This document shows positions 16,718 to 43,825 of a stretch of DNA of 64,000 nt, piece after piece; position 1 is the stretch's first letter, and every line of letters begins with the position of its first letter. A program made the translations under genes and the position numbers. The stretch is taken from assembly GCF_016907515.1 (NCBI RefSeq), contig NZ_JAFBBY010000001.1, positions 1,984,001-2,048,000 on the forward strand. Direction: 5' to 3'. Below the pieces are notes generated by a model that ran no database searches, had not been told where the DNA came from, and was given only the letters and a program-made list of their open reading frames with translations. This DNA comes from Nocardioides nitrophenolicus. GTDB lineage: Bacteria; Actinomycetota; Actinomycetes; Propionibacteriales; Nocardioidaceae.

Positions 16718-16743
16718 GCGAGACGGCATCATGTCAAGCGATA
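16718..16743 (-). promoter_or_regulatory. IclR-type operator, FAH operon
   Basis: On the minus strand, TATCGC (16743-16738) and TCTCGC (16723-16718) lie exactly 20 bp apart, the pitch seen at all seven sites. The site overlaps the predicted promoter (TTGACA to TAAAAG) and ends 9 bp before the start codon, a position suited to repression. Confidence 0.6.
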
Positions 16744-16823
16744 CGCAGCCGAGATGGCACGAGCGCTCGCCACGCCCGGGCGAAGGCTCAGAACCCGCCT
16801 GCGGACAGGGATTCCGGGCAGCA

Positions 16824-16861
16824 CGAACACCCGGCACCGCGACGGCGGCACCGGGTGTTCG
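16824..16861. terminator. P450 gene terminator hairpin
   Basis: Inverted repeat CGAACACCCGG (16824-16834) with its exact complement at 16851-16861, inner stem GCACCG/CGGTGC-like. It is located 15 bp past the end of the minus-strand P450 gene. Confidence 0.7.
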
Positions 16862-16876
16862 ACGAACGCGACAGGA

Positions 16877-19093
16877 CTACAGGTCGAGGACCAGCTTGGG
16901 GGTGCAGGACCTGCTGACGCAGATCATCATGGAGCGGCCGGTGGCCTGCTCGGCCTCGCTGAGCACCTCGTCGCGATGGTCGGGGGCGCCCTCGAGCACC
17001 CGCGTCTCGCACGAGCCGCAGAAGCCCTTCTCGCAGTCGTAGGCGATGCCGGGCACGGCCTCCCGGATCACCTCGATCAGCCGCTTGTCGACCGGAACGT
17101 CGACAGTGACGCCGGTACGACGCAGCTCGACCTCGAAGGGCACGTTGCCCTCGGTGGAGGTGAGCCGAGCCTCCATCTCGTCGCTGGCGGCGAAGCGCTC
17201 CACGTGGAGGTCACGGCCGCGACCGAGCTCGTCGCACACCCGCTGCACCTCGGCGATCATCGCGCCCGGGCCGCAGCAGTAGATCGCGGTGCCGGCGGGC
17301 GTGGCCGCGATCGCGCCGTGCAGGTCGGGGAGGCCGTGCTCGTCCTGGGGCACCAGGTCCACCTCGATGCCGGGCAGGGCGCTCAGCTCGTCGGCGAACG
17401 CCATGGTGCCGCGCGAGCGGCCGCCGTAGAGCACCCGCGCGGGCCGGCCGCGCGTCGACAGGTCCCGCGCCATCGCCAGGATCGGCGTCACGCCGATGCC
17501 GCCGGCGATGAGCAGGTGGCCGTCGGCGTCCACGAGCGGGAAGTGGTTGCGTGGGCCGCGGACGGTGAGCTCGCGGCCGGCGACCGCGATCTCGTGCAGC
17601 TCCTCGGAGCCACCGCGCCCTTCACGCTCGCGCAGCACCGCGAACCGGTACGACGCCGGGTCGGCGCCGCACAGCGAGTACTGCCGCAGCCGGCCGGACG
17701 GCAGCCGCACCTCGAGATGGGCGCCCGGCTGCCAGCGCGGCAGCGTCCCGCCGTCGGCGGCACGCACGGTGATCGCGACGACGTCGTCGGCAACCACGTC
17801 GACGGCGTCGAGGACCACGTCGTAGGTCTCCGCGCCGTGGCTGGCGCCCTGGAACCGGTCGACCCGGTCGCCCACCCGCGGACCGGGCGTGAAGGTCGCC
17901 GGGATGACGTCCCAGCCCATGTGGTTGCCCCGCGAGGCGTAGCCGACGACGCCGGCGCGGTCGACCTTGTAGTCCGGCAGCCGGGTGAGGACCTGGTGGA
18001 TCATCTCCTGGAACATCGCCCGCGCCAGGTGCGCCCCCGGGCAGCGGTGGGTGCCGATGCCGAAGGTGAGATGGCGACTGGCGTCGCGGTCGAGGCGCAC
18101 CTCGTGGGGCTCGCTGAACACCTCGGGGTCGTGGTTGGCCGCGAACCACGGCACCAGCACCCGCTCGCCCGCCCTGACCGGGCAGCCGCCGATCTCGGTG
18201 TCGGTGGTCGTCGTACGGGACATGGCGGTGACCGAGCCGTAGCGACGCAGGAACTCGTCGGTGCCGTCGACCAGCAGGTCGGGCGCGTCGATGAGCTGCT
18301 GGCGCATCTCGGGATGCTCGTCGAGGTGGACCAGGACCGAGCCGGTGAGCGAGGTCGTGGTGTCGACGCCGCCGGTGATGGCGATGCCGATGACCGAGAA
18401 CAGCTCGGCGTCGGTGAACTCCGAGCCGTCGGCCTTGCGCTCGGCGATCAGCCGGCTGATCACGTCGTCACCCGGGTGGGCGCGGCGCTCGGCGATCAGC
18501 TCGGCGAGGCGCTTCTCCATGTAGGCCATGCCCTCGTAGGCGCGCTGGGCCCGCTCGCTGCCGGGCTCGGAGGTGAAGACGTCGTGGATCGGGCGACCGA
18601 TCCGCATCCAGTCCTCCTCGGGGAAGCCGATCCAGTCGAGGGTGACGGCACTGGGCAGCGGGTTGGTGAGCACCTCGACCAGGTCGACGCTGCCCGACTC
18701 GATGAACTCGTCGACGATCCGCGAGGCATGGCGCGCGATCATCGGGCGCAGCTCGTCGACCGCGGCGGGCGAGAGGATCAGGTCGAGCAGCCGGCGGTAC
18801 TCCACGTTGTCCGGCGGGTCCAGCTCGAGCGGCTGCTGCATGTTGCCCCCGAACGGACCGCTCGGGATCACGATGGCCGTGCCCTCCAGGTTGCCCGCCG
18901 CGCGGGTGGAAGAGAACAGCGCGTCGTTGCGCGCGACGTGGAAGACGTCGGCGTACCGGGTGAGGTAGACGTAGCCGTTCTCGTGGGCGTCGGACCGACC
19001 GACCGGGCACTTGTCGCGGAAGGCCGCGTAGTAGCCGACGATGTCGTCGCGGCATTCGGCCGAATGGTGGTCGAACTTCTCGTAGGTTGACAT
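16877..19093 (-). CDS. Self-sufficient cytochrome P450 (P450-reductase-ferredoxin fusion)
   Basis: A 738-aa fusion resembling CYP116B enzymes. Residues 1 to about 410 form the P450: I-helix GGVDTTTS (near 240) and heme-ligand loop FGIGTHRCPGAH with Cys near 350. From about 420 follows a phthalate-dioxygenase-reductase module: FMN motif RQYS near 473, NADH-binding GGIGVTP near 530 and CCGPGAM near 605. A C-terminal [2Fe-2S] domain carries CEKGFCGSC near 690 and a final Cys in MMICVSRS. Such enzymes hydroxylate or dealkylate without separate redox partners. ATG 19093 has AGAGGGA upstream. It is divergent from the alcohol dehydrogenase and shares its operator region. It may create the alcohol that the dehydrogenase oxidises (inference). 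Confidence 0.92.
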   Translation of the reverse strand: MSTYEKFDHHSAECRDDIVGYYAAFRDKCPVGRSDAHENGYVYLTRYADVFHVARNDALFSSTRAAGNLEGTAIVIPSGPFGGNMQQPLELDPPDNVEYRRLLDLILSPAAVDELRPMIARHASRIVDEFIESGSVDLVEVLTNPLPSAVTLDWIGFPEEDWMRIGRPIHDVFTSEPGSERAQRAYEGMAYMEKRLAELIAERRAHPGDDVISRLIAERKADGSEFTDAELFSVIGIAITGGVDTTTSLTGSVLVHLDEHPEMRQQLIDAPDLLVDGTDEFLRRYGSVTAMSRTTTTDTEIGGCPVRAGERVLVPWFAANHDPEVFSEPHEVRLDRDASRHLTFGIGTHRCPGAHLARAMFQEMIHQVLTRLPDYKVDRAGVVGYASRGNHMGWDVIPATFTPGPRVGDRVDRFQGASHGAETYDVVLDAVDVVADDVVAITVRAADGGTLPRWQPGAHLEVRLPSGRLRQYSLCGADPASYRFAVLREREGRGGSEELHEIAVAGRELTVRGPRNHFPLVDADGHLLIAGGIGVTPILAMARDLSTRGRPARVLYGGRSRGTMAFADELSALPGIEVDLVPQDEHGLPDLHGAIAATPAGTAIYCCGPGAMIAEVQRVCDELGRGRDLHVERFAASDEMEARLTSTEGNVPFEVELRRTGVTVDVPVDKRLIEVIREAVPGIAYDCEKGFCGSCETRVLEGAPDHRDEVLSEAEQATGRSMMICVSRSCTPKLVLDL

Positions 19094-19140: not shown

Positions 19141-19175
19141 TCTCGCAAGGTGAGTCAACGTCTTGCATTGCGCAA
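19141..19175. promoter_or_regulatory. IclR-type operator between P450 and alcohol dehydrogenase
   Basis: Plus-strand half-sites TCTCGC (19141-19146) and TCTTGC (19161-19166) are 20 bp apart. The second forms a dyad with GTGAGT (19150-19155) over a 5-bp spacer, and a further partial half-site GCGCAA lies at 19170. It is placed 48 bp from the P450 start and 71 bp from the dehydrogenase start, so it can serve both. Confidence 0.6.
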
Positions 19176-19236: not shown

Positions 19237-20346
19237 ATGCGAACCAGAGGCGCCATCGTCCGCACCGCCCCCGGCCCCTACGAGGTGGTCGACCTCGACG
19301 TCGCCGACCCGGCCGAGGGGGAGGTCCAGGTCCGCCTGGCCGCCGCCGGGCTGTGCCACTCCGACGACCACATCGCGGTCGGCGACTCCCCCGTCGCGAT
19401 CTACCCCTTCGCGCTCGGCCACGAGGGCGCCGGTGTCGTCACCCAGGTGGGCCGCGGGGTCACCGGCCTCGCCGAGGGCGACCACGTGATCTTCTCGTTC
19501 CTGCCCGCCTGCGGCCGCTGCCGCTGGTGCGCCAGCGGGATGCAGAACCTGTGCGACGAGGGCGGCAAGGTGTGGATGGCGCCCGAGGTGCCGCGCGTCC
19601 ACCTCGCCGACGGCGGCGCCCCGGTCGGCCAGATGTGCGGTGTCTCCGCCTTCCTGGAGACGACCACCGTCGACGCGCGCTCCGTCGTACGCATCGACCC
19701 GGACCTGCCGCTCGACAAGGCCTGCCTGGTCGGCTGCGGCGTCGCCACCGGCTGGGGCGCGGCGGTCAACTCGGCCGCCGTCCGCCCGGGCCAGGTCGTC
19801 ATCGTGATGGGCATCGGCGGCATCGGCATCAACGCCGTCCAAGGTGCCGTCCACGCGGGCGCCACCACCGTCATCGCCGTCGACCCCGTCGACTTCAAGC
19901 GCGAGGAGGCCAAGCGCTTCGGCGCGACCCACGCCTTCGCGACGATGGACGAGGCCGCCGAGATCGCCCGCGAGCACACCAACGGCCAGGGCGCCGACGC
20001 CGCGATCGTGACCGTCGGCGTCGTCACCGGCGAGCACGTCGGCGCGGCCTTCGCCGCCATCCGCAAGGGCGGCACGGCCGTCGTCACCGGCCTCGGCGAC
20101 AACGCTGCCGTCGGCGCCCCGATCAGCCTCACCGAGCTCACGCTCTACCAGAAGCGGCTCCAGGGCTCGCTGTTCGGCCAGTGCAACCCGACCGCCGACA
20201 TCCCGGCGCTGCTCGACATGTACCGCGCCGGCGCGCTCAAGCTCGACGAGATCGTGACCCGGACCTACGCGCTCGACGAGATCGGGCAGGGGTACGCCGA
20301 CCTGCACGCCGGGCGCAACCTGCGCGGGGTCGTGCTCTTCGACTGA
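19237..20346 (+). CDS. NDMA-dependent (mycofactocin-linked) alcohol dehydrogenase
   Basis: Zinc-dependent medium-chain dehydrogenase (369 aa) of the actinobacterial NDMA-dependent subgroup, which keeps its NAD(H) bound and passes electrons to mycofactocin. Seen: catalytic-zinc residues GLCHSDDH and GHEGAGVV; structural-zinc cysteines CGRCRWCASGMQNLC; coenzyme loop GIGGIG near residue 195. The C-terminal LQGSLFGQCNPTADIP is typical of the subgroup. ATG 19237 has AGAAGGA 9 bases upstream. It lies 6 kb from the mft operon and shares the regulon operator. Likely substrate: an alcohol made by the adjacent P450 (inference). Confidence 0.92.
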   Translation: MRTRGAIVRTAPGPYEVVDLDVADPAEGEVQVRLAAAGLCHSDDHIAVGDSPVAIYPFALGHEGAGVVTQVGRGVTGLAEGDHVIFSFLPACGRCRWCASGMQNLCDEGGKVWMAPEVPRVHLADGGAPVGQMCGVSAFLETTTVDARSVVRIDPDLPLDKACLVGCGVATGWGAAVNSAAVRPGQVVIVMGIGGIGINAVQGAVHAGATTVIAVDPVDFKREEAKRFGATHAFATMDEAAEIAREHTNGQGADAAIVTVGVVTGEHVGAAFAAIRKGGTAVVTGLGDNAAVGAPISLTELTLYQKRLQGSLFGQCNPTADIPALLDMYRAGALKLDEIVTRTYALDEIGQGYADLHAGRNLRGVVLFD

Positions 20347-20618: not shown

Positions 20619-21527
20619 CTACCGCGCCGGCGCGAACGGCTGACCGAGCGCGAGCGGCCGCCTCGACCGCGCCCCGAGGAGCGCGAGCGACACCAGCGCC
20701 AGCAGGTACGGCGTGGCCGCGAGCAGCTGCGGCGACACGGAGTACCCGATCGCGGGGAGGGCGAGCTGCAGGCCCTGGGCGACGCCGAAGACGAAGCAGG
20801 CGCCGATGACGCCGCGCAGCATCCAACCGCCGAAGATGACCGCCGCGATGACGATGTAGCCGCGGCCGGCGGTCATGCCGCTGGTGAACGAGCCGGACTG
20901 GAAGACCGACAGGTAGGCGCCGCCCAGGCCGGCGCAGAAGCCGCAGAAGAGCAGCGCCTGGCGGCGACGGGCGTTGACGTCGACGCCGGTGAGGTCGCCG
21001 GCGACCGGGTCGTCGCCGGCGGCGCGCAGCTCGAGCCCGAACCGCCGCCGGCGCACCCACCAGATCAGCAGGAGCAGGGGCAGCAGCAGGTAGACGACCC
21101 ACGGCTGGACGAAGAACGCCTTGCCGACGACCGGCAGCTCGGAGAGCAGCGGGATCCGCCACGCCGAGCCGGCGGGGATGTCGAGCACGGTCGTCGACAG
21201 GAGGTAGTTGGTCACGCCGAGCACCAGCACGTTGAGCGAGAGCCCCACGACATAGGTGTTGAGCTGCAGCCGGTGGCTGAGGTTGCCGTGCACGAAGGCG
21301 ACCACGAGCGCCGCGGCCACGCCGCAGAGCAGGCCGACGATCGGCGAGCCCGAGGCGGAGGCGCCGTACGCCGCCGCGAACGCGGAGCCGAGCATCATCC
21401 CCTCGACGGAGAGGTTGAAGGTGCCGGCCCGCTGGGCGACGTACTCCCCCAGCCCGGCGAACAGCAGCGGCACCGTCAGCGGCACCGACGCGGTCAGGAT
21501 CGTCTCGAGGTCCGTCGTCAGGTTCAT
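20619..21527 (-). CDS. ABC importer permease (BMP/nucleoside type), subunit 2
   Basis: Membrane subunit (302 aa) of an ABC importer of the BMP/nucleoside class (NupQ/YufQ-like). There are about eight hydrophobic helices. The family segment GTFNLSVEGMMLGSAFAA (about residues 32-52) and GDDPVAGDLTGVDV (near 185), the EAA-like coupling loop, are visible. It starts one base after the upstream permease stop and is the last of four genes in the minus-strand operon. Confidence 0.9.
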   Translation of the reverse strand: MNLTTDLETILTASVPLTVPLLFAGLGEYVAQRAGTFNLSVEGMMLGSAFAAAYGASASGSPIVGLLCGVAAALVVAFVHGNLSHRLQLNTYVVGLSLNVLVLGVTNYLLSTTVLDIPAGSAWRIPLLSELPVVGKAFFVQPWVVYLLLPLLLLIWWVRRRRFGLELRAAGDDPVAGDLTGVDVNARRRQALLFCGFCAGLGGAYLSVFQSGSFTSGMTAGRGYIVIAAVIFGGWMLRGVIGACFVFGVAQGLQLALPAIGYSVSPQLLAATPYLLALVSLALLGARSRRPLALGQPFAPAR

Positions 21528-21528
21528 C

Positions 21529-22713
21529 TCAGGCCTCCACGGCGCGGCGGATCCGGCGGCGCCGCAGCGCCGCGAGCAGGACGGGGGGACACAGCAGCGC
21601 GACCACGATCGCGGCGGTGATGACGTTCACGATGTCGACAGGTACGCCGTCGCCGCCGAGCAGGCCGCCGCCCGCGACCATCGCGCCGAAGACGAGCGCG
21701 AGCAGGACGCTGACACCTGCGTTGGTGCGCGCGGCGAGGGCGATGAGCAGGCCGCTCCACCCGATGGAGCTGGAGACGCCGGGGTTGAGCTGGAAGCTCT
21801 GCCCCATCAGGATCGCCGCGCCCGCGGCGCCGGCGAAGGCACCGGAGGCGGCGACGGCGAGCGAGCCGAGTCGTGGCGCGCTGATGCCGATCGTGCCCGC
21901 CACGGTGGGGTTCTGGCCGAGGATCCGGAGCCGGTAGCCGGCGTGCGCCGACGACAGGAACCACGCGACCAGGACGGCGGCGACCAGGGCCAGCACGAAC
22001 GCGAACGGCACGTCGACCCCGAGCACGTGGATCGTCGGCAGCATCGCCTTCTCCGGCACCCGCGGCGACTGCGATGCCGTGCCGGCACCGAGCGAGCCGG
22101 CGTCGCCCTTGTCGTGGAGCGGGCCGTCGCCGGAGATCAGCCCGGTCAGCAGCTGCTCGGCGAGGAACACCAGCAGCAGCGAGCTGACCACGATGTCGAC
22201 ACCGCGCGTGAACTTGAGCAGCGCGGCGAGCAGCGCCCAGGCCGCGCCGGCCAGCGCGGCGGCGACGAACCCGAGGACGATGGTCAGCGGGCCGGACGCG
22301 TCGACATGGAAGACCACGAACCCGGCGCCGATCGCGCCCAGGGTGACCTGACCCTCCTGGCCGATGTTGAACTGCCCGGCCCGCATGCAGATCACGGCGC
22401 CGACGGCGACGAGCAGCAGCGGGGCCGCGGCGGTCAGCAGGTAGCCGATCGAGATGGTGCTGCCGATGCTGCCCTCGAACAGGTTGCGCAGGATCACGCC
22501 CGGGTCGTGGCCGGTGGCCCAGCCCAGCAGCAGGCCGACGCTGATGCCGAGCGCGAGGAACACCAGGAAGGCGAGCACCTGCTCGGCGGCCGGACGGGCA
22601 CCCGACCGGAGCGAGCCGAGCAAGCGCTCCGTCGCGGCATCGGCACCGGTGGGTGACGGCGGGACGGGCGGGCCGCCCTGCGTCGCGGTCGGCTCGGAGA
22701 CCTCGGTGCTCAT
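21529..22713 (-). CDS. ABC importer permease (BMP/nucleoside type), subunit 1
   Basis: Partner permease (394 aa; NupP/YufP-like). A hydrophilic Thr/Pro-rich N-terminal extension of about 40 residues precedes the helices. Family motifs include MRAGQFNIGQEGQVTLGAI and the coupling loop ILGQNPTVAGTIGIS. ATG 22713 overlaps the ATPase stop by four bases. Confidence 0.9.
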   Translation of the reverse strand: MSTEVSEPTATQGGPPVPPSPTGADAATERLLGSLRSGARPAAEQVLAFLVFLALGISVGLLLGWATGHDPGVILRNLFEGSIGSTISIGYLLTAAAPLLLVAVGAVICMRAGQFNIGQEGQVTLGAIGAGFVVFHVDASGPLTIVLGFVAAALAGAAWALLAALLKFTRGVDIVVSSLLLVFLAEQLLTGLISGDGPLHDKGDAGSLGAGTASQSPRVPEKAMLPTIHVLGVDVPFAFVLALVAAVLVAWFLSSAHAGYRLRILGQNPTVAGTIGISAPRLGSLAVAASGAFAGAAGAAILMGQSFQLNPGVSSSIGWSGLLIALAARTNAGVSVLLALVFGAMVAGGGLLGGDGVPVDIVNVITAAIVVALLCPPVLLAALRRRRIRRAVEA

Positions 22714-24290
22714 GCGGACACTCCTCCCATCAGCAGGCCGAGCCGTTCCGGGTCGGCCTCGGCGCGGGACAGCTCCCCCTGGATCCGCCCCCGGTAGATC
22801 ACGGCGATGCGGTCGGACAGCTGCAGGATCTCGTTCAGGTCCGAGGAGATGAGCAGGACGGCGACCCCCGAGGCCGCCGCCTCCCGCATCCGCTGGTGCA
22901 GGTCGGCGACCGCACCGACGTCCAGTCCCCGGGTGGGCTGGGCGAGCACCAGCACCGACGGCGCCGCGGAGAGCTCCCGGGCCAGCACCACCTTCTGCTG
23001 GTTGCCGCCCGAGAGCGAGCGCATCGGCTGGTCGACCGACGCGACCGCGATGTCGTACTCCTCGACCAAGCGCTCGGCCAGACCGCGCAGCCGACGACGC
23101 GAGACCACGCCCGCCCGCGAGAGCGAGCGCAGTCCGGCCAGGGCCAGGTTGTCGGCGACCGACATGTCGAGGATGCAGCCCGACGTCTTCCGGTCCTCCG
23201 GTACGACGCCCACGCCGGCCTTGCGGGTCGAGCCCGGCCGCCCGACGGGGATCCGCCGCCCGTGCACGCGGAGCTCGCCGCCCTGCAGGGACAGCGACCC
23301 CGCGAGCAGCCCGGACAGCCACTGCTGGCCGTTGCCCTCGACCCCGGCCAGGCCCACGATCTCCCCGGCGCGCAGCTCCAGGTCGAGCTCGTCCAGACCG
23401 GGCGGGGCGCCGTCGTACGACGGGGTGCGGGCGCCCACGATGCTGAGGACCGGCGGCGCGTCGGCGAGCGGCGCAGACACCGGCGCCTCCTCGACCCGCA
23501 CCGGGGCGGCGCCGATCGCGGCGGCGACGTCGGTCGTACCGGGCAGGTCGCGGCCGATCATGTGGCGGGCCAGGTCGGCCACGGGCGTCTCCGCGGGGAT
23601 CACCCGGGAGACGACGCGGCCGCCCCGCATCACCGTGGCCCGGTTCGCCACCGCGGTGATCTCGGCCAGGTTGTGGCTGATCAGGATGACCGAGCAGTCA
23701 CCCTGCTCGACCAGCCCGCGCAGCATGGTGAACAGCGAGCGCGACTCCTGCCGGGTCAGCACGGCCGTCGGCTCGTCGAGCACGAGGAGCCGCGGCTGGT
23801 CGATCAGGCAGGTGACCAGCTCGACCCGCTGCTGCTCGCCGACGCTCAGGTCGCCGACCATCGCGCGGGGCGAGACCTCGAGGCCGAACCGCTCGCTGAC
23901 CGCCTGGATCTGGGCCATGGTGCGGACCCGGTCGACCGGACCGCCGCCGCTGAGCACGACGTTCTCCCAGACCGACAGCGTGGGAATGAGGCTGTAGTGC
24001 TGGTGCACCATCCGGACGCCGAGATCGCGGGCCGCGTTGGGATCGCGGATCGTGGCCGGAGTCCCCGCCAGGCTGACCTCGCCGCGGTCGGCGCGGACCA
24101 GCCCGAGCAGGATGTTCATCAGCGTGGACTTGCCGGCGCCGTTCTGGCCGAGCAGCCCGTGGATCTCCCCCGGCGCGACCTCGAGGTCGACGTCGAGGCA
24201 GGCCGGGACCCCGTTGAAGTGCTTGGTGATGCCGGCCATGCGGAGCGCCGGCGCCACCGCCTCCACCTCCGGTCCAGAACGAGCAGTCAT
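22710..24290 (-). CDS. ABC importer ATPase with two ABC domains (BMP/nucleoside type)
   Basis: 526-aa tandem ATPase of the NupO/YufO type. The first domain has Walker A GQNGAGKST, signature LSVGEQQRVEL and Walker B LLVLDEPTA. The second has the degenerate Walker A GVEGNGQQ usual for this class and signature LSGGNQQKVVLAREL. An unusual low-complexity Ala/Pro insert separates the domains (about residues 255-285). It begins 7 bp after the stop of the binding-protein gene. Confidence 0.92.
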   Translation of the reverse strand: MTARSGPEVEAVAPALRMAGITKHFNGVPACLDVDLEVAPGEIHGLLGQNGAGKSTLMNILLGLVRADRGEVSLAGTPATIRDPNAARDLGVRMVHQHYSLIPTLSVWENVVLSGGGPVDRVRTMAQIQAVSERFGLEVSPRAMVGDLSVGEQQRVELVTCLIDQPRLLVLDEPTAVLTRQESRSLFTMLRGLVEQGDCSVILISHNLAEITAVANRATVMRGGRVVSRVIPAETPVADLARHMIGRDLPGTTDVAAAIGAAPVRVEEAPVSAPLADAPPVLSIVGARTPSYDGAPPGLDELDLELRAGEIVGLAGVEGNGQQWLSGLLAGSLSLQGGELRVHGRRIPVGRPGSTRKAGVGVVPEDRKTSGCILDMSVADNLALAGLRSLSRAGVVSRRRLRGLAERLVEEYDIAVASVDQPMRSLSGGNQQKVVLARELSAAPSVLVLAQPTRGLDVGAVADLHQRMREAAASGVAVLLISSDLNEILQLSDRIAVIYRGRIQGELSRAEADPERLGLLMGGVSA

Positions 24291-24297
24291 CGCCGGG

Positions 24298-25449: not shown

Positions 25450-25549
25450 GTTTCTCCGCCCTCGATCCATCCGAGTAGTGCGTGACTTGCGGGTCGTTCC
25501 GACCTAGGTCCGAGTGCCTGTCGGCCGAGCCCCGGGACTGCGCCAGCAT

Positions 25550-25586
25550 GCACCAGCCCGTCTCGCAATGCAACACATCATCTTGA
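25550..25586. promoter_or_regulatory. IclR-type operator between ABC importer and aldehyde dehydrogenase
   Basis: Two dyads with 5-bp spacers at a 20-bp pitch: GCACCA/TCTCGC (25550-25566) and GCAACA/TCTTGA (25570-25586). It serves divergent genes. Confidence 0.62.
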
Positions 25587-28181: not shown

Positions 28182-28191
28182 GGCGCGCCTT

Positions 28192-28968: not shown

Positions 28969-28989
28969 CGGTTCACTCCCTGTCGGTGG

Positions 28990-32861: not shown

Positions 32862-33382
32862 GGCCGCTCCCCGAGCAGCGCCGCCTTCGAGCAGAGCAGC
32901 ACGACCGGCCGCCGCTGCAGCCAGGCCTGCTCGCTGGCGCGCTCGAACAGCCAGTCGTCGTCCGGTCCGTCGACGTGGTGGACGCTCAGCCCGGCCGCGG
33001 CGGCCACGCCGGCGGTCACCTGGCCCTTGTACGCCTGGTAGTAGAAGCCGTCCTCGGCCCCGCCCCGCGCGGCCGCGACCACCACGAGCGGCAGCTCGTG
33101 GTGGTGCGCGAACGCGGCCAGCACGTTGGCCGACAGCAGGACGCCGGCGTTCTGGCACAGCACCGCTGAGCGCAACCCCATCAGCGCGGCACCGCCGGCG
33201 ATCGCGACGGCGTCGTCCTCACGGGTCACGCGTACGTCGACCAGGGCCGGGTCCGCGACCACTTCGCCGATCAGCGGGCTCAGCCAGCTGTCGGGCAGGT
33301 ACGCCGCCAGGCCCACTCCGCCCGCCTTGAGCCGGTCGACGATGGCCGCGCCTCGCGCGGTCGCGATGTCGACGTCAGTCAT
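32858..33382 (-). CDS. Thiamine-diphosphate enzyme, PYR-domain subunit
   Basis: 174-aa protein equal to the N-terminal pyrimidine-binding domain of ThDP decarboxylases. VTREDDAVAIAGGAALMG supplies the conserved Glu that activates ThDP, followed by VLCQNAGVLLSANVLAAFAHHHELPLVVV-type sequence, here around residues 70-98, typical of ComD-like subunits. It overlaps the molybdenum hydroxylase gene by eight bases. Confidence 0.85.
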   Translation of the reverse strand: MTDVDIATARGAAIVDRLKAGGVGLAAYLPDSWLSPLIGEVVADPALVDVRVTREDDAVAIAGGAALMGLRSAVLCQNAGVLLSANVLAAFAHHHELPLVVVAAARGGAEDGFYYQAYKGQVTAGVAAAAGLSVHHVDGPDDDWLFERASEQAWLQRRPVVLLCSKAALLGERP

Positions 33383-36722: not shown

Positions 36723-37183
36723 CGGGCGTCCCGCCGGCTCTCGGCGACGGCGCAGACCGCGTCGACGATCTGGCGATATCCCGTGCAGCGGCAGACATTG
36801 CCCGACATCGCGCGCACGATGTCGGCGCGGTCGCGGTCGACGGACTCACGGAGCACCGCCTCGGCTCGGACCACCTGACCGGGTGTGCAGAAGCCGCACT
36901 GGAAGGCGGCATGGTCCGCGAACGCGGCGCGCAGGTCGGCAGCCTCGTCGCCGAGACCGGCCGCGGTGGTCACCTCGTCGGTCACCAGCGCGGCCGGCGT
37001 GGTGCAGGACATCACGGCGCGGTCGCCGACCAGCACGGTGCAGGCGCCGCACTCACCGCGACCGCACGCCTGCTTCGCCGAGAAGTTCCCCGCACCGCGC
37101 AGGACCTCCAGCAGGGAAGCGCCCGGGGCGCCGGCCGGGACGACGTCGCCGTCGACCCGGAGCCCGGCGCCGAGGTCAGCCAT
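36719..37183 (-). CDS. Molybdenum hydroxylase [2Fe-2S] subunit
   Basis: 154-aa small subunit with two [2Fe-2S] sites: plant-ferredoxin type CGRGECGACTV plus a later Cys (near residues 40-60), and the CGFCTPG...CRCTGY helical site (near 97-135). It overlaps the catalytic gene (ATGA) and the isochorismatase gene. Together with the fused large protein it makes a two-polypeptide hydroxylase. Confidence 0.95.
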   Translation of the reverse strand: MADLGAGLRVDGDVVPAGAPGASLLEVLRGAGNFSAKQACGRGECGACTVLVGDRAVMSCTTPAALVTDEVTTAAGLGDEAADLRAAFADHAAFQCGFCTPGQVVRAEAVLRESVDRDRADIVRAMSGNVCRCTGYRQIVDAVCAVAESRRDAR

Positions 37184-37811
37184 CGAGGGCGGCGGTCAAC
37201 CCGGGCAGATCGGTGACGACGCCGTGGAAGCGCTCGATGCTCGCCAGGGTCGCGGCATGAGCGGCGTCGTCGGAGTCGGCGACGCACTCGGCCGGGACGA
37301 CGACGTCGAAGTCCCGGGCGTAGGCGTCGCGGATCGTCGAGTCCACGCAGAAGCTGGTGGTCGTACCGGTGACCACGAGCACCTGCACGTCCTTCATCCG
37401 CAGCTCGACCTCGAGCGTGGTCTGGAAGAAGGCGCTCGAGCGGTGCTTGACCACGACCTCGTCGCGGTCCTCCTTGATCGCCTTCATCTCGTCGAGCAGC
37501 TCGGCGTCCCAGGTGCCGCGGCGGCACAGCTCGAGCTTGACCCCCCGGCGCTCCAGGTGGGACGGGATCCGGCGGCGCGCGCGGAGCACGTCGTCGTCGT
37601 AGTGGACCTGCTGGGTGAACCAGACGGGGATGTCGAGCCGGTGCGCCAGGTCGATCGTCCGCTGCACGGCGGGGATGATCGCCTGCGGGCTCTTCACGGC
37701 GTCCGCGCCGAACGCCTGGCCCCGCGACCCCTCGGGGTGACAGAAGCCGTTCTGCATGTCGACCACGAGCAGGCCCACGTCCCGCGGGTCGAGCTTCACG
37801 CTAAGCGGCAT
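37176..37811 (-). CDS. Isochorismatase-family cysteine hydrolase (amidase-like)
   Basis: 211-aa cysteine hydrolase with the triad Asp18 (LLVVDMQNGF), Lys near 120 (VVVKHRSSAFFQT) and Cys near 155 (TTTSFCVDSTIRDAYARDF, preceded by the cis-peptide region VTG). Relatives include N-carbamoylsarcosine amidase, RutB and maleamate amidase. Next to a hydantoinase-like gene it plausibly hydrolyses the ring-opened N-carbamoyl or amide product (inference). It overlaps neighbours on both sides. Confidence 0.88.
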   Translation of the reverse strand: MPLSVKLDPRDVGLLVVDMQNGFCHPEGSRGQAFGADAVKSPQAIIPAVQRTIDLAHRLDIPVWFTQQVHYDDDVLRARRRIPSHLERRGVKLELCRRGTWDAELLDEMKAIKEDRDEVVVKHRSSAFFQTTLEVELRMKDVQVLVVTGTTTSFCVDSTIRDAYARDFDVVVPAECVADSDDAAHAATLASIERFHGVVTDLPGLTAALDG

Positions 37812-39195
37812 GCCAGTTCCTCTCCTTGTCCTTGTCGGGTTCGGGCTTCGCGACCACCTGGCCGCTGCCCGGCTGCGCCAGCACCTCGCCGTCGCGGTAG
37901 ATCACGTCGCCGCGGCGCATGGTCAGCGTCGGCCAGCCGCGCAGCGGCACGCCCTCGAAGGCGCTGACGAACTCGCTCTGCGTGACGTCGGGACCGACGA
38001 CCTTCTCGGTCTCCAGGTCGACGATCACCAGGTCGGCGTCGGCGCCGACCTGGATCGCGCCCTTGGTCGGCGCCAGGCCGAACAGCCGGGCGGGGTTGTA
38101 GGCCATCGTCTCGGCGACCTTCTCGATCGCGATCCGGCCCTTGAGCACGCCCTCGGTGAGGACGACGGGCAGCATCGTGGCGAGGCCCGCGAAGCCGGGC
38201 GCCTCCTCCCAGATGCCCTTGCCGGACTTGGGGATCGGGACGTGGTCGGAGCCGATGGTCGAGATCCAGCCCTCGCGCAGGCCCCGCCACAGCTCGGCCT
38301 GGTGCTCGCTGTTGCGCAGTGCCGGCGCGACCTTGCCGACGCCGGAGCCGGCCAGGCGCTGGTCGTCGGCGGTGAGCGCGAGGTAGTGGGGGCAGGTCTC
38401 CAGGACGACGACTCGGCCCTTGCGCCGCGACTCGGCCGCCGCGTCGACGGCCATGCCGACCGTCGTGTGCGGCACGTAGAGCGGGCACTCCTGCAGGTCG
38501 GCGAGCCAGATCGCGCGCAGCAGGTCCTGCTCCTCGACGAAGTCGGGCCGCGACGCGCTGTAGGCCGCCAGGTCGTCGCCGCCGGACTCCTTCACCTTGG
38601 CGGTCAGGTGGCAGACCAGGGAGTCGTCCTCGCAGTGGACCATGCACCAGCCGTAGGGGCCGAGGTCGCGGATCTTCTCCATCGCGGCGTAGAGCACGGC
38701 GTCGTTGACCGACACCAGGCCGATCGGGTTCCCGGGCTCGTAGCCGCCCATGTAGAACTTGAAGCTCGTCACGCCGAACTCCTCGGCGTACCGGGGGATC
38801 TCCTCCACCTGCTCCATCGTCGAGATGATGAAGTGGAACTGGGTGTCCACCAGCATGCGCGTCTTCGCGGTCTCGAGCTCGGCCGGGAAGGTGTCGAGGA
38901 AGGTCGACGGCGAGCGGCGGTACTGCAGCACCGTCGTCACCCCGCCCACCGCGGCGCACGCCGTCTCGGACGCGAAGATCTCCGACAGCGGCCGGCCGCC
39001 GCCGAGGTGGACGTGCGGGTCGACGATGCCCGGCAGCACGTACCTGCCCTGGGCGTCGATCCGCTCGTCGGCCTCCGGGAGCACGCTCTCGTCGGCTAGG
39101 GCGACGATGCGACCGTCCTTGACGGCGATCGCCGCGTCGATGACGCCGCTGGGGCTGACGATCCGCCCGTTCGCGACGATGGTGTCCACGCGCAT
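37801..39195 (-). CDS. Dihydropyrimidinase/hydantoinase-like amidohydrolase
   Basis: 464-aa cyclic amidohydrolase. Metal-site residues are complete: DPHVHLGG (HxH near residue 61), Lys in TSFKFYMGG near 147, His in MVHCEDD near 182, His in VPHTT near 238 and Asp in IGSDHVP near 318. ATG 39195 has GGAGG 6 bases upstream; the in-frame extension to 39390 is Arg/Pro-rich and rejected. It is the first gene of a seven-gene overlapping operon ending at 30784. Ring-opening of a cyclic imide/ureide-like intermediate is inferred. Confidence 0.9.
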   Translation of the reverse strand: MRVDTIVANGRIVSPSGVIDAAIAVKDGRIVALADESVLPEADERIDAQGRYVLPGIVDPHVHLGGGRPLSEIFASETACAAVGGVTTVLQYRRSPSTFLDTFPAELETAKTRMLVDTQFHFIISTMEQVEEIPRYAEEFGVTSFKFYMGGYEPGNPIGLVSVNDAVLYAAMEKIRDLGPYGWCMVHCEDDSLVCHLTAKVKESGGDDLAAYSASRPDFVEEQDLLRAIWLADLQECPLYVPHTTVGMAVDAAAESRRKGRVVVLETCPHYLALTADDQRLAGSGVGKVAPALRNSEHQAELWRGLREGWISTIGSDHVPIPKSGKGIWEEAPGFAGLATMLPVVLTEGVLKGRIAIEKVAETMAYNPARLFGLAPTKGAIQVGADADLVIVDLETEKVVGPDVTQSEFVSAFEGVPLRGWPTLTMRRGDVIYRDGEVLAQPGSGQVVAKPEPDKDKERNWHAA

Positions 39196-39401: not shown

Positions 39402-39427
39402 GCAAGATGACGTCTTGCGATGCGATA
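39402..39427 (-). promoter_or_regulatory. IclR-type operator, hydantoinase operon
   Basis: Perfect dyad GCAAGA/TCTTGC with a 5-bp spacer (39402-39418) and a third half-site GCGATA at 39422-39427, 20 bp from the first. It lies about 207 bp before the start codon. The 206-bp leader also contains a CTCTCC/GGAGAG dyad (39335-39351). Confidence 0.65.
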
Positions 39428-39431: not shown

Positions 39432-40562
39432 TCAGTGCCGGTGGCCGGGCTCGAGCAGCGCCTCGTAGAGCCGCTGGAAGTGCGCCAGGTCGGCGAGGTC
39501 GACGACATCGCGACGCGGATCGGATGCCGATCGTACGCTCTGCGGCCCCACCCGCACCGTCGGAATCCCGTGCTCGCGCAGGACCACCCCGTCGGTCGAG
39601 CCGGTCCACCGCGCGACCGGCGCGGGCGGGGTACCGAAGACGTCCTCCCACGCGTGCCGCGCCGCGCGTACGACGGGTGCCCGCTCGGGCGTCGCCTGGG
39701 CGTCGTGCAGCCACTCCACGTCCACCGCGGTCCGGCAGCCGGCGAGCGGGCCGTCGGCGAGCAGGGCGTGCAGGCAGGCGGTCAGCTCGGTGCCGAGCCG
39801 GGTGTCGCGCTCCCCGGGCACGGTCACGACGTACAGGTCGACGAGCAGGTCGGCCGGCAGCAGGTCCGGCTTGTCGGGCATCCCGGCCCGCACCGCGCCG
39901 ACCCCGACCTGGGGACCGACCTGGCCCACGGGCGCGCGGCTCGCGAGATAGCGCTCGCGCCACACGGCGATCGCGTCGAGCACCAGCCCGGCATGGCGCC
40001 CGATGCCGCCGGTGGGCGTCGCGGACTCGGGTGCGAGGGCGGCGCCGGGGCGGCCGGAGACCCGCACCTCGACGTACGCCGCGCCGGGCTCCTCCCAGAG
40101 CAGGCCGGGCGGGCCGCCCTTGGCCACGATCGCGGCGGGCGGCAGCGCCGGCAGGTCGGCCAGGAAGGCGCGCACGCCCTCGGCGCGGCCTCCTCGGCGA
40201 TGGGTGCCGCTGCCCGCGAGCAGCAGGGTGCCGTGGCGAGCCTGCGCGAAGGCGGCCAGGGCGGCCGCGGCCGGCGCCCGGGCGACACCGAGGCCGAAGC
40301 CCTCGGCGACGCCGTCGCCCACCTCGAGCACGCCGACCGGATCGTCGAGCGAGGTGTCGAGGTGGGAGTAGAGCAACGGCCCCGGGCCGCAGCGGGCGAC
40401 CAGGTTGGCGCCGTCGGCGCCGTACGGCTGCACGGTCCACTCGATCGCGGGCCACTGCTCCGCACACCACGCGGCGAGCGCCTGCGCGGCGCGGCGCTCC
40501 CGGCCGCGCGGCGCAGGCGTCGCGTCGAGCACCCGGAGGAGCTCGACCAGCTGGTCGCTCAG
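39432..40562 (-). CDS. M20-fold protein lacking most metal ligands
   Basis: 376 aa, overall layout of M20 peptidases/amidases: first metal motif LLYSHLDTS near residue 67, a dimerisation lid in the middle, and the late TDGVVLREHGIPTVRVGP. The second motif, normally G-x-D-x-K-G, reads GVARAPAAAA. The catalytic Glu-Glu is replaced by GTHRRGGRAEG, and the terminal HxPxE-like His motif is absent. It is probably not a standard zinc hydrolase. The start is unclear: CTG 40562 overlaps the dioxygenase stop (CTGA), GTG 40532 is the alternative. It is the last gene of the Rieske operon. Confidence 0.65.
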   Translation of the reverse strand: MSDQLVELLRVLDATPAPRGRERRAAQALAAWCAEQWPAIEWTVQPYGADGANLVARCGPGPLLYSHLDTSLDDPVGVLEVGDGVAEGFGLGVARAPAAAALAAFAQARHGTLLLAGSGTHRRGGRAEGVRAFLADLPALPPAAIVAKGGPPGLLWEEPGAAYVEVRVSGRPGAALAPESATPTGGIGRHAGLVLDAIAVWRERYLASRAPVGQVGPQVGVGAVRAGMPDKPDLLPADLLVDLYVVTVPGERDTRLGTELTACLHALLADGPLAGCRTAVDVEWLHDAQATPERAPVVRAARHAWEDVFGTPPAPVARWTGSTDGVVLREHGIPTVRVGPQSVRSASDPRRDVVDLADLAHFQRLYEALLEPGHRH

Positions 40563-41767
40563 AAACGGCCCCAGTCGTCGGATGCCGGCCGCCAGACGTC
40601 GATGTTGCGCGGGTCGGCGGGCATCTTGCGGGCGCGGTGCGTCTCGTGCTCCTCGGGCGTGAAGACCCGGTGGCTGTCGCACAGCTCGAAGCGCGGCCCG
40701 AACCTCGTGTCGTGCAGGTAGAACGCGATGGACGTCGACGCCGAGTGGTTGACGATGTCGGAGGCGATCGGCGCGCCCTTGTAGAGCGCGCGGGCGCGCA
40801 TCCGCATGACGTGGTCGAGGCTCTTCATCGCGAAGCAGAGGTGGGCGACGTAGTGCTCGTCGTTCTTCTGGATCGCCAGGCTGTGGTGGTAGCGGTCCTC
40901 GCAGCGCAGGAAGGTCGCCGAGCCGACGATGTGGTCGGACGGGATGAAGCCCAGCACCTTGATGTAGAAGTCCAGCATCTCCTCGTACTTGGTGGTCGCG
41001 AGGAAGGGGTGGACCAGGTCGAGCGGGCGGATCTCGAGGTGCGGCGGCTCGGCGTACTCCTGGAAGCCGATGAACAGCTCGACGAGGAGACCCTCCGGGT
41101 CGGCGAGGGCGAAGCCGTCGTCGCACAGCTCCTGCTGGCGCTTCTGCAGGGCGAGGATCTCGTGGCCCGCCGCGATCGCGCGCTGCTTGATCTCCTCGAG
41201 CACCTCCGCGCTCTCGACGCTGAAGCCGATCGCGGTGGTCCAGCCGTCGGTGCGCTCGGGGGCGCTGATCAGCTCGATCGCGTGGTGCTCGATGTCGGCC
41301 CGGAGGTAGGCGTACTCGTCGGTGCGCTGCTCCAGCTGGAGACCCACGTGGTACTCCAGGAAGTCGATGGTGGCCTGCATGTCGGGCACCTCGATCCGGG
41401 CGTACTCCATGCCGAACGGACCGTGCGGACGCTGGTTCACGCGTCCCTCCCTTCCCGCGTCGGCCTCCGGCCCCGCGAACTCGTAGGCGACGATCGCCTG
41501 GTCGGCGATCACCGGCCGCCACTTCTCGCGCACGAAGGTCTCGTGCGACTCACTGGTGAGGTAGGCGAGCAGCTCCTGCTCGTCGGGGAACTCGACCGAC
41601 ATCGCGTGGGTGTAGGTCTGGTCGCGGCTGCTCAGGTTCTCGCCCATCGACCAGTGGCGCATCGCCGGATAGCGCTCGGGGAAGGTCTCCAGCTCGGCGA
41701 GGATCGAGCGACGGGTCCCCTCGGGGACCTCGTCGGCGAACCGGAACATCAGGGTGTGTCGGATCAT
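40559..41767 (-). CDS. Dabb domain fused to extradiol-type (VOC) dioxygenase
   Basis: One continuous 402-aa frame. Residues 1 to about 100 (MIRHTLMFRFADEVPE...) form a stress-responsive A/B-barrel (Dabb) domain. From about 115 follows a two-module VOC protein like type I extradiol dioxygenases, with Fe ligands His near 252 (DLVHPFLAT), His near 307 (VAHLCF) and Glu near 359 (RFELCD). A strong GGGAGGGA before an in-frame GTG at 41440 means a separate 293-aa dioxygenase could also start there. It probably cleaves a catechol-like ring made by the adjacent Rieske system. Confidence 0.82.
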   Translation of the reverse strand: MIRHTLMFRFADEVPEGTRRSILAELETFPERYPAMRHWSMGENLSSRDQTYTHAMSVEFPDEQELLAYLTSESHETFVREKWRPVIADQAIVAYEFAGPEADAGREGRVNQRPHGPFGMEYARIEVPDMQATIDFLEYHVGLQLEQRTDEYAYLRADIEHHAIELISAPERTDGWTTAIGFSVESAEVLEEIKQRAIAAGHEILALQKRQQELCDDGFALADPEGLLVELFIGFQEYAEPPHLEIRPLDLVHPFLATTKYEEMLDFYIKVLGFIPSDHIVGSATFLRCEDRYHHSLAIQKNDEHYVAHLCFAMKSLDHVMRMRARALYKGAPIASDIVNHSASTSIAFYLHDTRFGPRFELCDSHRVFTPEEHETHRARKMPADPRNIDVWRPASDDWGRF

Positions 41768-41781: not shown

Positions 41782-42306
41782 TCAGAGGATGAAGCTCAGC
41801 CGAGCACCGACCGGCAGCGACTCGTGACCGAGGATCGACCGGCGCAGGCGGTACCTGAGCCCCGCCTCGGTGGGGACGACGACGTGCTCGTACCAGCCGA
41901 CGTACTGGTCGAACTGGCCGTCGCGCGCCCGGTGGACCACGAAGGACGCACGGATCCGCAGCGTGCCCTCCTCCTCGCCGGCGAACAACCGGACGTTGGA
42001 GACCAGGCGGTGGGTGCGGGAGTGCGGGTTCTCGGCGTGGGCCTTGCGCGACTTGAGCCGCTTGACCCGGGCCTTGATCAGGTCGTAGTCGTCGTCGACG
42101 AAGGAGCCGCCGGCGTGGAGCGACCAGCCCCGGTAGTCGGTGGTCGGGATCTCGTAGCGCGCGCCCTCCTCGAACAGCTCGAACCACGCGTCGTAGTCCC
42201 AGGCGTCCAGGATGTCGGCCTCGGCGTAGAGGAAGTCCTCGACCTCGCCGCGGGTGACCACCCGTCCCGCCACCTCGATCGCGCCGCGCACGTCGGCCTG
42301 CGTCAT
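41782..42306 (-). CDS. Rieske non-heme oxygenase, beta subunit
   Basis: 174-aa small subunit of the ring-hydroxylating dioxygenase SnoaL-like fold (EVEDFLYAEADILDAWDYDAW; HRLVSNVRL). It has a structural role in the alpha3beta3 hexamer. It overlaps the alpha-subunit stop by four bases. Confidence 0.93.
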   Translation of the reverse strand: MTQADVRGAIEVAGRVVTRGEVEDFLYAEADILDAWDYDAWFELFEEGARYEIPTTDYRGWSLHAGGSFVDDDYDLIKARVKRLKSRKAHAENPHSRTHRLVSNVRLFAGEEEGTLRIRASFVVHRARDGQFDQYVGWYEHVVVPTEAGLRYRLRRSILGHESLPVGARLSFIL

Positions 42307-43646
42307 GCCAGCTCCCTTCCCTCGAGGAAGCGCTCCGGCCGTTCGCCGGACACCTCCAGGCCGCCGCCGACGGCCCGCTCCCAGTGTCGCCAGAAGCCCC
42401 GCATCGCGCCCTCGTCGATGGAGCGGCCCTGGACGCCCTTCACCTCGTCGCGCATCCCGCGCGACATGTCGCTGTAGTCGAGCTCGCCGGCGCCCCTGGT
42501 CGCCTCGATGCCGCGCTGGACGGCCTCGTAGGCCTCGATGTCGTCGGGCGTCGCCAGGCCGCCGGGACCGACGAAGCTGACGACGGTCTTCATCCGCAGC
42601 GCTCGGGACTCCTCGTGCTCCTCGCGGGGCACCAGCTGCCAGGCGCGGACGTCGGTGTGACCCGGCGCGACCGGCTCGAGCTGGCGGATCGAGAGTCCCT
42701 CGATGTCGAAGAGCAGCAGGTTGGGGAAGACGAACAGGATGTGGCTCTCGTCGGCGACGTAGTGCGCCCGCTTCTCGCCCAGCCGCTCGCGCATCTCGGC
42801 GAGGTGCTCCTCGGTGCGGACCTTCTCGGCCTCGCCGAAGCGCGGCTCCCACACCATGCTGATCCGTCCGCCGTGGCCGGTGAGCACGAGCAGGGAGTGC
42901 CCGTTGCCGAGGTTGTAGGCGTACTGGTCGTCGTCGGTGACCGCGAAGCCGGACTCGCGCAGGTAGCCGACGAAGGTGTTGTGGGTCGGCGAGAAGTGGT
43001 AGCCGTCCATGGCGTTCTCGACGGCGAGCTTCCAGTTGCCGCGGACGCTGTAGAGCTGGACGCCGGGCAGCGTGGTGACTCCGCTCGCGTGCTGCTGCTC
43101 GATCATCGTCATGTAGTCGGCGGCGTCGCCGAGATGCTCCAGCAGCGGCGGCACGTCGGGGTTGAACGAGATGAAGACATAGCCCTCGTGGGTCTCCAGG
43201 CGCGGGACCGAGCGCAGCATCATGCTGCTCTGCAGCGCCTCGATGTCCTCGTAGGCGCCGTTGTCGGGGATCGCCGCCACGGTGCCGTCGTTGTTGAACG
43301 TCCAGGCGTGGTAGAAGCACTGGAAGCGCTTCTGGGAGCCCTCGGTCTCGCGACACAGCACGGTGCCGCGGTGCGGGCAGGAGTTCAGCCAGGCCCGCAC
43401 CTCCCCGTCCGCGTCGCGGCAGAAGATCAGCGGCCGGCCGGCGATGGTGCGCACCTTGAAGTCGTTGACCTCGGGGATCTCGGTCTCGTGTCCGAGGTAG
43501 AGCCAGGTCCGCAGCCAGATGTCGACCCGCTCGCGGGCGAACAGCTCCGGCGAGCGGTAGGCCTCCCGGTTGACGCGGAAGGTCAGCCGCTCCCAGTCCT
43601 CCACGAGCATCGGCTCCGCCACTCGCTCGGACACTTCGCTTGGCAT
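42303..43646 (-). CDS. Rieske non-heme oxygenase, alpha (catalytic) subunit
   Basis: 447-aa catalytic subunit. Rieske ligands CPHRG (near residue 89) and CFYHAW (near 110); mononuclear-iron motif ENAMDGYHFSPTH near 210-222 with the bridging Asp and two His; third carboxylate expected near 365. ATG 43646 has GAAGGAG 8 bases upstream, ruling out the longer open frame. First gene of a minus-strand operon with the beta subunit, the Dabb-VOC dioxygenase and the M20-like gene. Electron donors are encoded divergently (ferredoxin and reductase). The substrate is an aromatic ring, not identifiable further. Confidence 0.94.
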   Translation of the reverse strand: MPSEVSERVAEPMLVEDWERLTFRVNREAYRSPELFARERVDIWLRTWLYLGHETEIPEVNDFKVRTIAGRPLIFCRDADGEVRAWLNSCPHRGTVLCRETEGSQKRFQCFYHAWTFNNDGTVAAIPDNGAYEDIEALQSSMMLRSVPRLETHEGYVFISFNPDVPPLLEHLGDAADYMTMIEQQHASGVTTLPGVQLYSVRGNWKLAVENAMDGYHFSPTHNTFVGYLRESGFAVTDDDQYAYNLGNGHSLLVLTGHGGRISMVWEPRFGEAEKVRTEEHLAEMRERLGEKRAHYVADESHILFVFPNLLLFDIEGLSIRQLEPVAPGHTDVRAWQLVPREEHEESRALRMKTVVSFVGPGGLATPDDIEAYEAVQRGIEATRGAGELDYSDMSRGMRDEVKGVQGRSIDEGAMRGFWRHWERAVGGGLEVSGERPERFLEGRELA

Positions 43647-43680
43647 CTCGGTCGCTCCTTCGCCCTGGTCACTGAGTGCT

Positions 43681-43720
43681 ATCGCGAGATGCCATCTCGC
43701 GATGCGACATAGCCTCACCC
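43681..43720 (-). promoter_or_regulatory. IclR-type operator, Rieske operon
   Basis: The best site in the window: GCGAGA/TCTCGC over a 5-bp spacer (43684-43700), inside a perfect 23-bp palindrome (43681-43703). A second dyad, GCGACA/TCACCC, begins at 43704, again 20 bp later. It lies 35 bp before the alpha-subunit start. Confidence 0.7.
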
Positions 43721-43799
43721 ACCCCGAGTGGGCTGTCAAGAGGTCGGATGAATCCGTCCGACGGGTTGACGGAGGCACCCCTCGGGGTTCATTGTCCTG

Positions 43800-43825
43800 T
43801 CTTGTAATAAGAGACGCTGTCTCGG
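43800..43825 (+). promoter_or_regulatory. IclR-type operator, ferredoxin-reductase-iclR genes
   Basis: TCTTGT (43800-43805) and TCTCGG (43820-43825) at a 20-bp pitch; the second forms a GAGA-N5-TCTC dyad. It ends 25 bp before the ferredoxin GTG. Confidence 0.55.

Follow-up and report, generated by a model that had tools for sequence, protein, structure and literature searches.

A candidate IclR-type regulator and its predicted three-box operators in the lumichrome catabolism cluster of Nocardioides nitrophenolicus

Seven short, related sites recur among the catabolic genes of a segment of the Nocardioides nitrophenolicus genome. The question they raise is whether they are operators of one regulon, which protein binds them and what the regulated genes do. 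The stretch of DNA analyzed, termed the window, is 64,000 nt (positions 1,984,001–2,048,000 of contig NZ_JAFBBY010000001.1, a one-contig genome of 5,815,017 bases) and represents about 1.1% of the genome. The original prediction assigned the sites to an IclR regulon of catabolic operons whose pathway was not named; here the pathway is identified as the catabolism of lumichrome, which forms the core of vitamin B2. The corresponding genes, lumA–lumY, are from Pimelobacter (Nocardioides) simplex ATCC 6946, from which the pathway was reconstituted in 2025 by Sinha et al. (PMC12746152). Judged from the DNA sequence, the seven sites very probably constitute a single regulon of lum genes with the IclR-type protein encoded in the cluster as the binder. 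The best explanation of the data is a regulon that would comprise lumA–lumY, an additional ATP-binding cassette (ABC) transporter and iclR itself.

Direct reading of the sequence confirms that the half-sites TCTYGC/GCRAGA are present at all seven stretches, which are numbered 1 to 7 by position. The sites share a common register, a 26-bp three-box operator with the pattern GCRAGA-N5-TCTYGC-N3-GCRANA. Two boxes form an inward-facing palindrome, and beside it is a third box that has the orientation of the palindrome's outer box and is 20 bp from it. This combination of a palindrome and a direct-repeat third half-site is found in the window and in orthologous sequences. The proposed pair of same-orientation half-sites 20 bp apart thus stands as a layout at every site, but the second direct half-site is looser than the first (GCRANA) and is exact only at position 19141. 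The inverted repeat with a 5-bp spacer, said to be perfect at two sites, is indeed exact twice in the window, and the slightly relaxed form GCRAKA-N5-TCTYGC is present at two places in the whole genome, both of them inside the window. The sites precede all nine transcription units (as judged from gene spacing), with sites 2 and 3 each common to two divergent units, in agreement with the proposal that they lie before the start genes of the catabolic operons.

Could this recurrence be due to chance or follow from the composition of promoters? Counted strictly, the half-sites TCTYGC/GCRAGA show no enrichment, with 81 in the window compared with a mean of 83.6 in 40 second-order Markov simulations. 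Allowing one of the two half-sites a single mismatch leaves the spectrum of spacings indecisive: same-orientation spacing of 20 bp is the most common (8) but barely exceeds 24 bp (7), and the convergent offset of 11 (4) is below offsets 6 and 34 (5 each). At ≤3 mismatches to the 26-bp pattern there are 76 matches in the genome versus 113 for a reversed-pattern control, and this level therefore represents background. These results would favor chance, yet that explanation is contradicted by genome-wide, leave-one-out and held-out tests and can practically be dismissed. The strength of the motif is in the complete three-box pattern and not in single half-sites. The window contains the exact inward palindrome GCRAGA-N5-TCTYGC 2 times, where the simulations average 0.05; the direct repeat with exact half-sites 20 bp apart occurs once (at 19141) and in none of the 40 simulations. 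The genome-wide scan that had been suggested as a check shows that the motif is not randomly placed, as 7 of the 11 matches at ≤2 mismatches in the whole genome are within the window and cover six of the seven sites. The four matches outside the window score 13.9–15.2 bits, compared with 20.9–28.0 bits for the seven sites, which are the training set of the matrix. With leave-one-out matrices made from six sites, the left-out site ranks first among 127,106 non-site window positions in six of seven cases. Site 7, at 43800, ranks second behind one chance position, and it is accepted because it is conserved in 8/8 aligned Nocardioides genomes.

The sites are conserved together with the regulator. 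A set of 341 genomes of the family was searched for relatives of IclR (E ≤1e-40) and LumC (E ≤1e-120), and both proteins are found in the same eight genomes. In a sample of 396 genomes from the phylum they are present in the same two, one of which is the window's own genome. P. simplex ATCC 6946 (L058, G210) has the same cluster, and its IclR is 92% identical. Sites 2, 3, 5 and 6 are found there at ≤2 mismatches, and sites 1 and 7 are visible in alignments. Site 6 is present in all 8 Nocardioides clusters at ≤2 mismatches, site 3 in all 7 genomes whose contig covers the place, and site 5 at ≤2 mismatches in 7/8 genomes, with a weaker form visible by alignment in the eighth, G112. Alignments also show that site 7 is kept in 8/8 genomes. 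Site 4 follows the SsuABC-like ABC transporter: it is found in 5/5 genomes that have this transporter and is absent from both covered clusters that do not. No SsuABC-like transporter was found in the clusters of ATCC 6946 (G210) and G212. In G296 the cytochrome P450/alcohol dehydrogenase (ADH) pair is on another contig and carries site 2 with it. Orthologous sites with more than two mismatches are site 1 in G256, G210 and G212, site 2 in G212, site 5 in G112, and site 7 in all but G112; sites 1, 2 and 7 are nevertheless visible by alignment in these genomes. At ≤1 mismatch the 341 genomes contain 43 matches. Eighteen are in seven of the eight IclR-positive genomes, all at lum genes, and the remaining 25 are spread over the 333 IclR-negative genomes. 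All six matches without mismatch belong to lum genes in genomes that encode IclR. The IclR-positive genome without a match at ≤1 mismatch is G112, where two are found at 2 mismatches. In 8/8 genomes 123–125 bp separate the palindromes of sites 6 and 7, a distance close to 12 helix turns that would allow the two sites to cooperate.

A held-out test extends the association beyond the genus. A genome scan with an IclR alignment yielded 65 named loci, of which 55 have at least one tblastn match to a cluster gene and 49 have LumC-like genes. A matrix made from the seven window sites only was applied at a threshold of 12 bits to 60 loci outside Nocardioides/Pimelobacter. Matches are present in 115 of 207 windows upstream of lum-type or iclR starts (59 of the 207 belong to iclR). 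The controls give 0/354 for coding windows and a mean of 4.8 with a maximum of 22 for column-permuted matrices (60 permutations); the coding controls have a higher G+C content than intergenic DNA, a bias that the permuted matrices address. Windows at contig ends and genes that are usually inside operons (M20, isochorismatase, lumJ, transporter ATPases) were left out. By gene, matches are found for LumC (39/44), the FAH-type gene (32/40), P450 (6/8), ADH (6/6), aldehyde dehydrogenase (ALDH, 6/7), IclR (25/59) and the amidohydrolase lumM (1/2). Third boxes with at least 4/5 matches outside the genus are on the upstream side of 36/49 FAH palindromes versus the downstream side of 12/49. This preference is weak at LumC (upstream 11/60, downstream 6/60). 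Besides the window's own genome, the phylum sample contains one genome with both IclR and LumC, the distant G544, and there all five matches of at least 14 bits in 80 kb fall in the lum region. The genome scan, the orthologous alignments, the held-out matrix and the co-occurrence of IclR and LumC all argue for the single IclR regulon of the original prediction, with binding itself a prediction.

Some members of the loci deserve separate mention. G544 (L054, L055) has two IclR homologues, 61% and 52% identical, which are adjacent and convergent beside the lum cluster; the arrangement suggests a duplication of the regulator. Two contigs of Chloroflexi metagenome-assembled genomes (MAGs), L116 and L120, carry IclR and LumC-like genes, and L116 also has one-mismatch sites. 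In Rhizohabitans (L064), SsuABC/NMT1-like genes are near a site but some hundreds of bases downstream of it, beyond the 300-bp test window.

The protein presumed to bind the sites is 254 amino acids (aa) in length and belongs to the IclR family by its PF09339 (34.8 bits, cut-off 22) and PF01614 (67.9 bits, cut-off 24) domains. By profile its best-scoring solved relative is KdgR (PDB 5y6i, E = 7e-27), and TtgV (2xrn, 2xro) scores E = 1.7e-11. It was described originally as the only local regulator, and domain scans of the genes at 13.5–47.2 kb reveal no other. LumY matches AraC_binding (the AraC ligand-binding domain) and Cupin, and is a protein of 124 aa in which no DNA-binding domain is seen. 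LuxR, PadR and MftR were considered as alternative regulators and rejected, as they are present in only 3, 3 and 0 of the 65 related loci, which extend up to 10 kb from iclR. A LuxR-type gene is also found in 4/8 Nocardioides cluster views. The IclR protein is put forward as the binder because it is the sole regulator in these scans, LuxR and PadR neighbors are rare, iclR is behind site 7 in what is apparently one unit with lumB and lumA, and a three-box layout is a trait of the IclR family. The alternative is that a different transcription factor binds the sites and IclR is a bystander. The identity of the binder is itself predicted, and 34 of the 59 IclR upstream windows in other genera are below 12 bits. 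However, domain scans show no second regulator among the cluster genes, LuxR- and PadR-type neighbors are found at 3/65 loci each, genomes with IclR are also those with LumC, and the layout is one known for this family, so a bystander role is very improbable.

Several results weigh against the explanation given here. The held-out test gave no match at 12 bits for BMP (0/11), FNR (0/26), ssuC1 (0/2) or ssuC2 (0/2), and at this threshold nothing supports conservation of the BMP operon as a target outside the genus. FNR mostly sits behind a ferredoxin gene, and ferredoxin windows were outside the test. Because the loci were picked by their IclR and include many close relatives, and because one site may serve two divergent genes, the counts do not represent independent events. 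Site 7 has a weak matrix score. Five Microtetraspora loci without lum genes (L091–L094, L104) have a related palindrome about 100 bp ahead of iclR, but at 10.2–10.6 bits these matches are weak, and four of the five loci have a stronger 12.4-bit match about 2 kb away.

How IclR might act can be approached from the position of the operators relative to predicted promoters. Promoters resembling those of sigma-70 were predicted at an offset shared by the orthologues, with the best 26-mer taken per genome. Where the orthologous region is missing or has diverged this picks a wrong place, and such rows were excluded, i.e., G296 and G112 at site 1, G296 in both directions at site 2, G112 at sites 3 and 4, and G127, G112 and G212 at site 5; these excluded rows lower the computed means. 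The predicted registers recur in orthologues. At lumC and lumBA-iclR the operator is predicted to span about -5 to +20 and -2 to +23, over the transcription start. At lumV (-42 to -17) and lumU (-43 to -18) it would cover the -35 element and spacer, and at lumN (-58 to -33), lumT (-62 to -37), the transporter (-64 to -39) and lumH (-65 to -40) it would lie against the -35 element. In the window the third box is upstream of the unit served; of the units at the shared sites, lumT and lumN follow this rule, and lumU and the BMP genes do not.

These registers lead to a proposed mechanism. The inward palindrome GCRAGA-N5-TCTYGC would be bound by an IclR dimer and the third box, two helix turns from the outer box, by an additional subunit. 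Ligand-free IclR would block polymerase at the transcription start of lumC and lumBA-iclR, the latter amounting to autoregulation, over the -35/spacer region at lumU and lumV, and against the -35 element at lumT, lumN, lumH and the transporter. IclR would be released from the operators by lumichrome or an early product, e.g., 7-carboxylumichrome. Repression at lumC and lumBA-iclR is proposed because an operator over the transcription start is hard to square with activation. A repressor of this type, released by its effector at all lum units, is favored with moderate confidence.

A dual IclR would instead activate lumT, lumN, lumH and the transporter, where the palindrome center is at about -41 to -48, and repress lumC, lumBA-iclR, lumU and lumV. 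At four of the eight predicted promoters the operator abuts the -35 element or lies shortly upstream of it, with the third box on the upstream side, a place where activators also bind, and members with dual roles are noted in a review of the IclR family (PMC8222616). On the other hand, the transporter promoter is near consensus (TTGACA-N17-TAGGTT) with no obvious need of an activator, the distance from the -35 element varies, and repressors bind there as well. Dual control is possible but somewhat doubtful, and repression throughout appears more likely. Comparison with other genera, in which orientation and TTGAC were counted at sites of at least 12 bits only, is mixed. The orientation agrees with the window rule at 27/39 lumC sites and 29/33 FAH sites, and TTGAC is found 18 times at 26–33 bp ahead of the 27 lumC operators with the third box on the left (6+5+3+2+2 by offset) and at the site-1 offset in 14 of 29 such FAH sites. 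The remaining 12/39 lumC sites score in the reverse orientation, so the window rule is a loose one outside the genus; at the shared ADH/ALDH site the orientation obtained by one scoring method is the opposite of that obtained by the other. The probability given to repression at all units is reduced because of this conflict in orientation and the overlap with dual control.

Gene identities are from domain scans and gene starts, and lum names were assigned by domain content, gene order and the protein sizes in PMC12746152; transcription units, promoters and starts are predictions (Table 1). P450, cyclic amidase, thiamin pyrophosphate (TPP) decarboxylase, xanthine-oxidase-like, Rieske, extradiol dioxygenase, pyrone hydrolase, aldolase and cupin genes are found together, and the cluster genes are orthologous to those of ATCC 6946. 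Gene content and protein sizes fit lumA–lumY as given in that paper with the exception of lumG and lumS, which were not recognized among the cluster genes by domain content, order or published size. The paper names 25 genes, A–Y, none of them called a regulator in the passages covered, and 'IclR' is absent from its main text. The LumJ equivalent of the window consists of two proteins, one an iron-sulfur subunit and the other a fusion in which the molybdenum domains precede the FAD domain; the published LumJ is a single 140-kDa protein (PMC12746152).

The pathway bears directly on the effector. The regulon may be right and the effector or natural substrate be something other than lumichrome or an early derivative, e.g., a late pyrone or another quinoxaline, and this can hold together with either repression or dual control. 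An effector is not readable from sequence, and the ten of the 65 loci that have IclR and no recognizable lum gene are compatible with a different ligand. Yet most of lumA–lumY is behind these operators, and ATCC 6946, which has the cluster and the sites, grows on lumichrome (PMC12746152), so that another effector is considered unlikely. A broader proposal is tentative: IclR would be a master regulator dedicated to vitamin B2 catabolism and would sense lumichrome (or 7-carboxylumichrome), with one three-box operator used in several promoter registers, possibly in a dual manner, from Actinomycetota to Chloroflexi MAGs.

Table 1. Predicted operators and genes of the lumichrome cluster in the window (sites are predicted operators; start codons and transcription units are predicted).
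Feature	Position	Strand	Description
Site 1	16718..16743	-	lumV-W-X-Y operator; third box 16738-16743, palindrome 16718-16734; predicted promoter -35 16732-16737, -10 16708-16713; operator over -35 and spacer
Site 2	19141..19175	+	Common to lumU (-) and lumT (+); 26-bp core 19141-19166
Site 3	25550..25586	+	Between BMP-type transporter genes (-) and lumN (+); best core 25561-25586
Site 4	30657..30682	-	Operator of SsuABC-like ABC transporter operon
Site 5	39402..39427	-	Operator of lumH-I-J-K-L-M; exact palindrome and third box
Site 6	43684..43709	-	Operator of lumC-D-E-F; directly 3' of predicted -10
Site 7	43800..43825	+	Operator of lumB-lumA-iclR; directly 3' of predicted -10; weakest by matrix
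iclR	45184..45948	+	IclR-type regulator; presumed to bind sites 1-7; last gene of predicted lumB-lumA-iclR unit
lumA	44147..45127	+	Ferredoxin reductase, 326 aa; size and role agree with PMC12746152
lumB	43851..44150	+	Ferredoxin, 99 aa
lumC	42303..43646	-	Rieske oxygenase alpha subunit
lumD	41782..42306	-	Ring-hydroxylating beta subunit
lumE	40559..41767	-	Dabb and extradiol dioxygenase, 402 aa
lumF	39432..40562	-	M20-type metallohydrolase; start codon uncertain
lumH	37801..39195	-	Cyclic amidase, dihydropyrimidinase/hydantoinase-like
lumI	37176..37811	-	Isochorismatase-like amidase
lumJ equivalent	33375..37183	-	Xanthine-oxidase-like, two frames: 36719-37183 and 33375-36722
lumK	32858-33382	-	Thiamin-dependent heterocycle decarboxylase, one of two subunits
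lumL	32262-32861	-	Thiamin-dependent heterocycle decarboxylase, one of two subunits
lumM	30784..32265	-	Amidohydrolase
ABC transporter operon	27177..30565	-	SsuABC/NMT1-like; behind site 4
lumN	25619..27094	+	Aldehyde dehydrogenase; GTG start 25619 inferred, predicted leaderless
BMP-type transporter	20619..25449	-	Four genes, presumed lumO-R equivalents; divergent from lumN
lumT	19237..20346	+	NDMA-dependent alcohol dehydrogenase
lumU	16877..19093	-	Self-sufficient cytochrome P450, 738 aa
lumV	15879-16709	-	FAH-type
lumW	14676-15836	-	Amidohydrolase
lumX	13915-14679	-	HpcH/HpaI aldolase
lumY	13544-13918	-	Cupin

The SsuABC/NMT1-like transporter is a candidate lumichrome importer. The lum cluster of ATCC 6946 has orthologous genes, and the window adds this transporter with its own predicted operator.

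Other features of the window are located in or near the cluster. NDMA-dependent alcohol dehydrogenases, the class of LumT, depend on mycofactocin, and mycofactocin-type genes are present near lumT at 7081–12064 (a TetR protein with an MftR domain, a radical SAM protein, an FMN dehydrogenase and a creatininase). The approximately 100 bp between site 3 and the first BMP gene (25450–25549) are near-invariant in seven Nocardioides genomes and, by eye, more conserved than other aligned intergenic stretches. Considered as an RNA element, this leader has no Rfam match up to E = 1, and no related leader is found in L056–L124. A cobalamin riboswitch (51393–51577, 92.8 bits) is ahead of a Peripla_BP_2/FecCD uptake system.

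Only in 2025 were the enzymes with which bacteria break down riboflavin reconstituted, and the control of the pathway is now testable; lumichrome itself is described as a rhizosphere signal and quorum-sensing mimic (PMC12746152). No regulator of lum genes was found in print in a titles-level literature search on lumichrome/riboflavin catabolism and IclR/regulators, together with passages of PMC12746152. What appears to be new here is a candidate regulator, its putative operators and an extended regulon for vitamin B2 catabolism, with a half-site that differs from those of known three-box operators. A second transporter is predicted in the lum regulon, and the motif may serve to locate lum genes in further genomes. 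Should lumichrome prove to be the effector, IclR would be a ready-made lumichrome sensor.

Among known systems, three-box operators of the IclR family have been described for 32 orthologous groups, e.g., PcaU, PobR and HmgR, by Suvorova and Gelfand in 2021 (PMC8222616). The sites described here resemble those of PcaU, PobR and HmgR in having an inward palindrome plus a direct-repeat third half-site with alternating box directions. Sites spaced by about two helix turns are frequent in the family, in which aromatic catabolism and autoregulation are typical (PMC8222616). The likeness to PcaU/PobR operators that was originally proposed thus holds for the layout, with a direct half-site beside the palindrome, and fails for the half-site sequence and the subfamily. 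By eye, GCRAGA/TCTYGC fits neither the group 1 (GKTYC..GRAMC) nor the group 2 (TGRAACA..TGTTYCA) consensus given in that review. The window IclR is also below the cut-off of the PcaR/PcaU/PobR subfamily (TIGR02431, 90.9 bits vs 284.75). KdgR and TtgV are likewise IclR-family proteins by sequence, but they are distant relatives with other operators and functions. The extent of control would be different as well: family members generally control their own gene plus one or two adjacent operons (PMC8222616), whereas here there are seven sites over 27 kb that precede nine predicted units.

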